Source of the DNA: Deltaproteobacteria bacterium
GTDB taxonomy: Bacteria; Desulfobacterota; Syntrophia; Syntrophales; UBA2210
Assembly (NCBI GenBank): GCA_019313905.1
Contig: JAFDAI010000029.1
Span: forward strand, 1-36,859
Reading direction: 5' to 3'
Length of the DNA stretch: 36,859 nucleotides
In this document: positions 12,666 to 36,430 of the stretch, one piece after another
Layout of the letters: every line of letters begins with the position of its first letter
How positions within the stretch are numbered: position 1 is the first letter of the stretch
Program-made: the position numbers and the translations under genes
The notes under the pieces: generated by a model
The model's input: only the letters and a program-made list of their open reading frames with translations
Told to the model about the DNA's origin: nothing
The model's database searches: none

Positions 12666-13687
12666 TTACGGCATAGCGAAGATCTTCTTGAATTCGCCTC
12701 CCCAATAATGGATTTCCTTATCCGATAGCACACGAATGGGCAGAACCGTTGCTTTGTCGATGCCGGCTATGGGAGGATAGACACCGGGACAGAGGACATA
12801 CTCGCCCACTTTATCTGCCAGCATCTGCATGGCATCTCTGGACAGCCAGTAATCCACGAATAGCTTGGCGGCATTGGGATGCTTAGCAGTAGCGGCGACA
12901 GATATCCCCCGGGGAGTCCCCAGCAGGGGTTGCTCAACTCTTGCCCAATCCAGAGGGGCAGGCGCCTTGGTGATGATGTATTTCGGCATAGAGATAGCGA
13001 TCAGCTTCTCACCGCTCTCCACCGGTGCGGGGGTGGGGCCGAAAGATTTGACAAACATCGGCTCATTGGCCGCGAGACCCTTGACAAATTTCATCCAGGC
13101 CTTTTCAGAGGGAAAAACATTCTCTTTCAGCCCGATGAGCCAGGAAATAGTGGTTGCATGGCTGGAGGGATTGGCCATAACAATCTTTCCCTTCCATTTG
13201 CAATCTTTCCCTTCCATTTGGGGTCTGTCAGGTCTTCGTACCTTTTGGGAACATCCTTCGGTTTGACAAGATCTTTGTTATAAATCAGGGCGACATATTC
13301 AATACCGAAAATCTGAATCTTATCGTCCTTTCTTGTCCATTCGGGATAGATGGCGGCCGCGGGTGATTTGTACGCGGTCAGAACACCCTTATCCTTCAGG
13401 AGTTCCATGATCGGCAGGGGCGACTGAAGTACATCGGCAATAAGCTTTCCGGCCTGATACTCCGTCAGGACGGTCGCGAGGAATTTCGAGGTGGAGATTC
13501 TCGTATATTCTCCCTTGACACCCTTATCCTTGGTGAACGCCTGCATGATGGGCTGAATGGCCGTGATGTTGGCGTAAAACGATACTTTCCCCTCCGCCTT
13601 TGCCTTCTCAACAAGGGTCTGATCTGCTGAGTACGCGTAAGGAACCATAAAAAAAATAACCAGTAATAGAACTATAAATTTTTTCAT
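12666..13687 (-). pseudogene. Iron-type periplasmic binding protein, frameshifted
   Basis: The first part, from ATG 13687, has a signal peptide (MKKFIVLLLVIFFMVPYAYS) and a family 1 binding-protein domain of the ferric-iron type, up to YEDLTDPKWKGKI. At that point an exact 20-bp tandem duplication (13181-13200 and 13201-13220) shifts the frame by two. The first frame then ends after about 24 unrelated residues, at 13127. The rest of the family fold continues in another frame from IVMANPSSHATTISWLIGL to the stop at 12666-12668. Removing one copy of the repeat joins the two parts into one protein of about 333 residues. A restart inside the second copy would lack the signal peptide. It heads the operon with the damaged ATPase. 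Confidence 0.88.
13181..13220. repeat. Exact 20-bp tandem duplication
   Basis: Positions 13181-13200 and 13201-13220 are identical and directly adjacent. Twenty is not a multiple of three, so the duplication itself causes the frameshift in the binding-protein gene. The lack of any mismatch suggests a recent event or an assembly artefact. Confidence 0.97.
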
Positions 13688-13836: not shown

Positions 13837-13906
13837 TATATTTTTTCAGTCAGAGTCTTGCCGGATAGGATGCAGCTGTAGGGTTTTCTCGGGAGCTTTG
13901 TATAAC

Positions 13907-14051
13907 TAGTGCCCATCCAGAAATGAGATAGTTTTCTCAAGGTCAAGGAAGACGAGGATTTAACCACAGGAATACATTGAAGTATTTCGAGGATTAAAAT
14001 TCGAGCCTGACGCAGAGATTGTGGAAAATAGTCATTTATGGATGGGCACTA
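13907..14051. mobile_element. MITE-like repeat, copy 1
   Basis: The body is 141 bp, bounded by inverted ends that begin GTGCCCATCCAGAAATGA on the left and read GTGCCCATCCATAAATGA from the right, with one mismatch in 18. The dinucleotide TA flanks both sides (13907-13908 and 14050-14051). A second, related copy lies at 25370-25506. It encodes nothing. Short size, inverted ends and TA flanks fit a miniature element mobilised by an IS630/Tc1-type transposase, though no such gene is in the window. It sits 10 bases beyond the trkH stop. Confidence 0.75.
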
Positions 14052-14061
14052 ACTATCCTGG

Positions 14062-25365: not shown

Positions 25366-25371
25366 ATTATA
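25366..25371 (-). promoter_or_regulatory. Possible -10 box at the repeat boundary
   Basis: TATAAT, read on the - strand, straddles the left TA flank of repeat copy 2, about 35 bases before fabG. No matching -35 box is found at 16-18 bp, so this is a candidate only. Confidence 0.3.
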
Positions 25372-25506
25372 CAGATCCAGAAATGAAACAGTTCTTGCAA
25401 GATCAAGGAAGATAAGGATCGCGACTATAGGAACACATTAAAGTATTTTGAGAATTAGAATCCGGCGCAGAAATTGTAAAAAACAGTCATTTCTGGATGG
25501 ACACTA
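25370..25506. mobile_element. MITE-like repeat, copy 2
   Basis: It aligns along its whole length with the repeat at 13907-14051. Shared blocks are ATCCAGAAATGA at the left, TCAAGGAAGA and AGTATTT inside, and GTCATTT with TGGATGG at the right. It is degenerate: the left end has lost the first bases of the inverted end, and an inner block is about five bases shorter. TA flanks both sides. On the right the flanking TA is part of the rpmF stop codon (25504-25506). It separates rpmF from fabG. Confidence 0.72.
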
Positions 25507-36306: not shown

Positions 36307-36430
36307 ATGGCAAAGTAAAAAGCTCCAAATGCAAGGCGCGCAAATCATGCGGAACGAGGCGTACATACGGTACGCCGCAGTGACGAAGGATGCAGCGGAA
36401 CGCAGGAGTTGGACTTTTTACAAAGCCATT
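36306..36430. mobile_element. Inverted-repeat element after nrdD
   Basis: The left end AATGGCAAAGTAAAAAG and the right end read in reverse, AATGGCTTTGTAAAAAG, differ at three positions. Inside, GGCGTA and TACGCC form a hairpin stem. The 125-bp unit encodes nothing and begins at the last base of the nrdD stop. It is a different family from the repeat at 13907. It may also work as a 3' structure for nrdD. Confidence 0.65.

Follow-up and report, generated by a model that had tools for sequence, protein, structure and literature searches.

The 36,859-nucleotide stretch of DNA analysed here (the window) contains a 143-bp element that is very probably a MITE with ISNCY-recognised ends and a 4-bp target duplication at T-ANNT-A, built around a covarying hairpin core that is separable from these ends and recurs on unrelated ones. 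The window sequence sets its exact limits at 13908-14050, and its inverted ends differ by one mismatch over 19 bp (Table 1). An earlier reading made from the letters of the window alone (the sequence-only reading) had described a 141-bp non-coding unit with 18-bp inverted ends and TA on both sides. The non-coding unit and its singly mismatched ends are upheld, while the lengths are corrected to 143 and 19 bp, and the T/A flanks, although present, belong to a duplicated AACT rather than to a duplicated TA. The element directly adjoins a - strand TrkH gene at the gene's stop codon, in agreement with its proposed placement at a gene end. The repeat is real, far beyond chance: the 2.45-Mb draft genome that holds the window (the own genome) contains 30 similar stretches (E≤0.001), the end pattern with ≤3 mismatches was matched there 25 times compared to 0 for the reversed control, and folding of the element as single-stranded DNA gave z = -6.7, a stability reached by none of 200 shuffles.

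Table 1. Positions in the window of the 143-bp element's parts and of a second copy.
Feature	Coordinates	Strand	Basis or remarks
Target duplication, left copy (AACT)	13904..13907	.	sequence and family statistics
Left terminal inverted repeat (AGTGCCCATCCAGAAATGA), ISNCY-type end	13908..13926	+	same ends border ISNCY transposase genes
Conserved hairpin core	13928..14030	+	model R1, 89.2 bits, E 4.5e-21; covariation
Right terminal inverted repeat (reverse complement AGTGCCCATCCATAAATGA)	14032..14050	-	sequence and end-pattern search
Target duplication, right copy (AACT)	14051..14054	.	sequence
Second, older copy	25368..25505	+	core at 25388-25485 scores 38.0 bits; right end (25487-25505) intact, left end decayed

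A full-length, diverged relative had been proposed at 25370-25506. Its right end and core are recognisable, confirming the relationship, but its left terminus bears no end sequence, and hence it is not full length. Since the orthologous place in a sister species (G005) holds an equally decayed copy, we regard it as an old insertion.

Collecting copies by their ends from the own genome, its relatives and named public genomes gave us 112 distinct elements with paired ends, 60-300 bp long. Their lengths peaked sharply at 143 bp (41 elements) and 144 bp (16 elements), and many copies elsewhere thus share the boundaries seen in the window, as had been anticipated. For the 107 paired copies with complete flanks, shuffled right flanks served as the null. 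An exact 4-bp repeat abutted AGTG...CACT in 56 copies, compared to 5.5 on average and at most 13 after shuffling, while repeats of 2 bp or 3 bp displayed no excess over shuffled flanks in these 107 copies. The sequence-only reading had an IS630/Tc1-type transposase moving the element at TA targets and duplicating TA, and T/A flanks are indeed present at 80 of the 107 copies. However, these apparent TA flanks arise because an ANNT target adjoins an element whose first base is A and whose last is T, giving the consensus T-ANNT-A. In addition, 11 of the 56 exact duplications lack the A..T form that TA duplication would require; they include AACC, GATT, TTTC and GGCT, which are incompatible with TA duplication, as well as AGAG, CCTT and AAGC. 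The TA target duplication expected of IS630/Tc1 elements was therefore not found, a 4-bp duplication being present instead, and the flank statistics speak against an IS630/Tc1 helper that duplicates TA. Taken together with ISNCY genes located between the same ends and with empty sites bearing one 4-bp target (both described below), these findings render the IS630/Tc1 reading extremely improbable. With respect to neighbouring genes, both orientations occur (30 sense and 21 antisense), a difference that is not significant (p 0.26).

A search for the flanks in six sister genomes yielded two usable empty sites, which confirm insertion. The empty site of copy L003 in genome G006 reads TTCTGTTAGTTAGCG, compared to TTCTGTTGTTT-element-ATTTAGCG when filled, and thus bears a single copy of the 4-bp target; that of copy L002 in G005 has the same length and one copy of a (diverged) 4-bp target. 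Empty sites had been expected to reveal a TA duplication, but each has one copy of a 4-bp target instead. For the window copy, no clean empty site was found among five sister species compared: four have no alignable flank up to its boundary, and the fifth retains 11 bases (GGATGGGCACT) at the site, a remnant that prevents this site from being clean. At the site in G005 (contig C24) orthologous to that of L003, a different, unrelated insert occupies the identical target, adjoining TTATTTAG repeats. As is expected of MITEs, the family consists of short non-coding units with terminal inverted repeats and boundaries common to many copies, and has both target-site duplications and empty sites.

We searched for full elements bounded by the same ends and found two. 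In G005, which belongs to the same genus, a 1.68-kb element (L132) with ends AGTGCCCATCCAGAAATG...CATTTCTGGATGGACACC and the target duplication AACT encodes a transposase of 457 aa that scores 425 bits against the NCBIfam ISNCY model NF033593 (cutoff 325) and matches Pfam DDE_Tnp_1. A genome from another family of the order (G137) carries an intact ISNCY homologue (L153; 45-46% identity, 452 bits) between ends of the same kind, with the duplication AATT. The MITE and these two elements thus agree in both ends and duplication length, as dependence on an ISNCY transposase would predict. Single adjoining ends of this kind were also observed at ISNCY genes L154 and L155 and at the gammaproteobacterial L210 and L217. 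The only autonomous elements found with the element's ends are of the ISNCY family (DDE_Tnp_1), and their duplication is 4 bp, contrary to the proposal of an IS630/Tc1-type helper. The broader proposal of a non-autonomous element moved in trans is supported by common boundaries, empty sites and autonomous elements with matching ends. The element is thus a MITE whose candidate helper is an ISNCY-family transposase, by which it would be mobilised. No ISNCY transposase was detected in the own draft genome at 1e-20. Repeated IS elements often drop out of draft assemblies, and the helper is therefore lost from this genome, unassembled or external.

The anatomy of the copies is consistent with a mechanism in which a transposase made elsewhere would bind the 18-19-bp ends and cut out or copy the hairpin element, with insertion at T-ANNT-A duplicating four bases. 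Any transposase that fits the ends would carry the core, which would persist independently of those ends. Since one arm of a palindrome can be copied from the other, hairpin elements with a common core may trade ends through recombination or template switching.

The usual view takes a MITE for the decayed remnant of a single parent element. The inner ~103 bp of this element, however, form a conserved imperfect hairpin that is not transposase DNA. We surveyed the phylum with R1, a covariance model of the core, at a threshold of E≤1e-6, and obtained matches in 86 of 395 genomes, spread over 64 of 246 genera; copy numbers per genome are lower bounds, since at most 10 candidates in each were scored. 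Within the own genome alone, A-, B- and C-ended copies have this core in common, and undisturbed copies measure 141-144 bp whichever ends they bear. Ends of type AGTGYCCATCCAGAAATG are associated with a 4-bp duplication, those of type GAGACCTTTGCAAAA with a 5-bp duplication (10 of 26 exact, shuffled mean 0.4), those of type GATTCTGTTGATTTATGA with ATNNAT-like 6-bp repeats (a small sample and statistically weak), and those of type AGTGCCTGAACGAAAACT with a 4-bp duplication (3 of 3); further types around the core are GGGTGTCTTGAAAAATTA, GGGTNCCTCTAAAAATT, GAACCCTTTGAAAACG, GAGCCTCTTGCAACATGA and AGTTCCTATAGAAAAACG. The B-type end GAGACCTTTGCA also bounds IS5-family transposases with 5-bp duplications in other genomes of the order (L335, TCTCC; L337, GCGGG; L339, ATCAG; L341, ACTAT; L359, GATGG), the family being assigned for L337, L339 and L341. 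Likewise, the end bordering L156, a divergent ISNCY gene (387 bits) that represents a second ISNCY branch, is of the AGTGCCTGAACG type. Searches with end patterns in 11 genomes and viral contigs revealed no transposase between paired C- or E-type ends, and helpers for the C and E-J types were not found.

An ordinary internal-deletion MITE of one ISNCY element, in which the core of other-ended repeats reflects convergence or simple hairpin similarity, would account for the ISNCY-like ends and for some matching subterminal bases (e.g. ...AAATGAGGATTTT in L217). However, the fully read ISNCY elements L132 and L153 lack the core, both inside their ends and elsewhere, and the best other-ended copies match R1 over 103 of 103 positions at 104-117 bits while retaining the same internal-loop motifs, 141-144 bp length and register. 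The full-length match and these common properties exclude convergence, and we consider an internal-deletion origin of this kind highly unlikely. Instead, the occurrence of the same hairpin between unrelated ends indicates that ends and core are separable modules. The core, rather than the ends, is the lasting unit, since it is common to elements whose duplications span 4, 5 and apparently 6 bp and for which at least two transposase families have been identified. On the best tree of 80 cores with 10 end types, at least 16 end changes are needed, a number to be taken as a rough guide, as the tree is weak (91 columns) and its well-supported branches force only a few of them; several exchanges are nevertheless hard to avoid.

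Alternatively, the core might itself be mobile, for instance via an enzyme that recognises single-strand hairpins, and insert between minimal MITE ends. Mini forms of 44-80 bp that have A ends but no core (L040, L190 and L221) and the nesting of other hairpins inside the element (L171, L201, L202 and L233) are compatible with such an origin. Among the copies read, however, we noticed no duplication bordering the core and no core standing alone, devoid of inverted ends, and the pairing of the stem runs continuously from the ends into the core, making self-mobility of the core improbable. Short hairpins nest inside a wider set of 143-bp copies as well (L171, L183, L201, L202, L225, L233 and L264), often several per element.

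We measured covariation in 38 non-redundant copies with 44 predicted pairs. Changes on both sides were observed in 22 of the 44 pairs, paired cells amounted to 96.8% compared to 86.9% after shuffling, and two-sided compensating cells numbered 141 compared to 45. The covariation score was 0.315 versus 0.145, and sliding the partner by one column reduced pairing to 48%. Whereas stems vary (e.g. TTTT/AAAA to AAAA/TTTT), the internal-loop motifs are constant: TCAAGG...; AACC[AG]CAGG.ATA / TATTYCGAGGATT; and AACGCAGA.ATTGG. Wobble pairs arose three times as often as A.C mismatches. Changes from Watson-Crick to G.U compared to A.C numbered 28 versus 10 in the core and 28.5 versus 4 in the ends, where differences between the left and right ISNCY ends may inflate the G.U figure. 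Among 80 cores, the GU:AC ratio was 49:17 (p about 1e-4) in pairs predicted on both strands, and the GU excess was seen both in copies with ISNCY ends and, separately, in those lacking them. In contrast, transitions in unpaired parts displayed no such strand bias (55 versus 68).

Long hairpins undergo arm-to-arm correction, and the covariation could be no more than a by-product when template switching corrects one arm of a DNA palindrome against the other, neither an RNA nor a single-stranded DNA function being under selection; such correction could also yield ends that always match. Against this, the mismatched internal loops are constant across genera, the GU excess extends to pairs predicted on the opposite strand's fold and persists in copies without ISNCY ends, and unpaired sites lack the strand bias. 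We therefore hold the by-product account to be rather doubtful. The wobble excess suggests that the single-stranded form of one strand is selected, most simply as RNA, and speaks for a role as RNA rather than as purely structural DNA; the core would then be kept because this form, probably RNA, acts somehow. Neither the core nor the element matched Rfam at the gathering score. We tentatively raise the possibility, less likely than not, that the core represents a hitherto unrecognised module of structured RNA or single-stranded DNA that travels as a passenger of several unrelated transposase families across the phylum, changing ends while its strand-specific fold is selected.

The kind of element is already known, since it is a MITE with a candidate ISNCY helper. 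ISNCY-family elements (NCBIfam NF033593), the presumed helpers, resemble it in end type (AGTGYCCATCCRGAAAYG) and 4-bp duplication, but differ in being 1.68 kb long, autonomous and transposase-bearing, with the hairpin core absent from the copies read. IS5-family elements (NCBIfam NF033581, transpos_IS5_4) share the GAGACCTTTGCA ends and 5-bp duplications of the B-ended relatives, an end type that differs from the ends of the window's copies. ERIC and Correia are bacterial MITEs. Together with QMITE2 and Chunjie, they are likewise short and non-coding, with inverted ends, target duplications, hairpin potential and high copy number. To our knowledge, these four have one set of ends per core; in contrast, here one structure-conserved core bears many end types across a phylum. 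QMITE2 of Coxiella and Chunjie of Geobacter uraniireducens have been reviewed as bacterial MITEs (PMC10969869). The multicopy intergenic sequences of Geobacter are likewise abundant and palindromic, but belong to another bacterial group, and the available portions of their descriptions report no transposase link or exchangeable ends (PMC2700814, PMC2996986). The open-access literature searched contained no description of a single core on different ends. Thus, a phylum-wide, structure-conserved core with interchangeable ends is new relative to Rfam and this literature, and a conserved inner hairpin clothed in the ends of different insertion sequences is unusual among MITEs. If the strand bias of the wobble pairs reflects RNA function, the core would be a mobile structured RNA, movable by any of several insertion sequences, and the question of why bacterial MITEs are hairpins would become testable. 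The series of interchangeable ends offers natural material for studying how elements change transposase.

Additional repeats were observed. A subfamily with ISNCY-type ends (L015, L026, L028, L047, L091, L100 and L269) differs in its apical hairpin (GGGATTGCGCGGAGACGTAC...GTACGTCGCACAAGGAATCCC) and has an additional tail of 35-45 bp with a second end. A further hairpin repeat at 36312-36421 of the window has about 25 matches in the own genome, the full-length ones at 85-95% identity. Its layout is similar (CAAGGC...; apical GAGGCGTAC/GTACGCCGCAG; AACGCAGNAGTTGG) and its inverted ends resemble GATGGC...GTAAAAAG, but it scores only 22.5 bits against R1; it is probably a sister family. Finally, the gene at 12666-13687 appears frameshifted, since it contains two overlapping ORFs, each matching a portion of a solute-binding protein.
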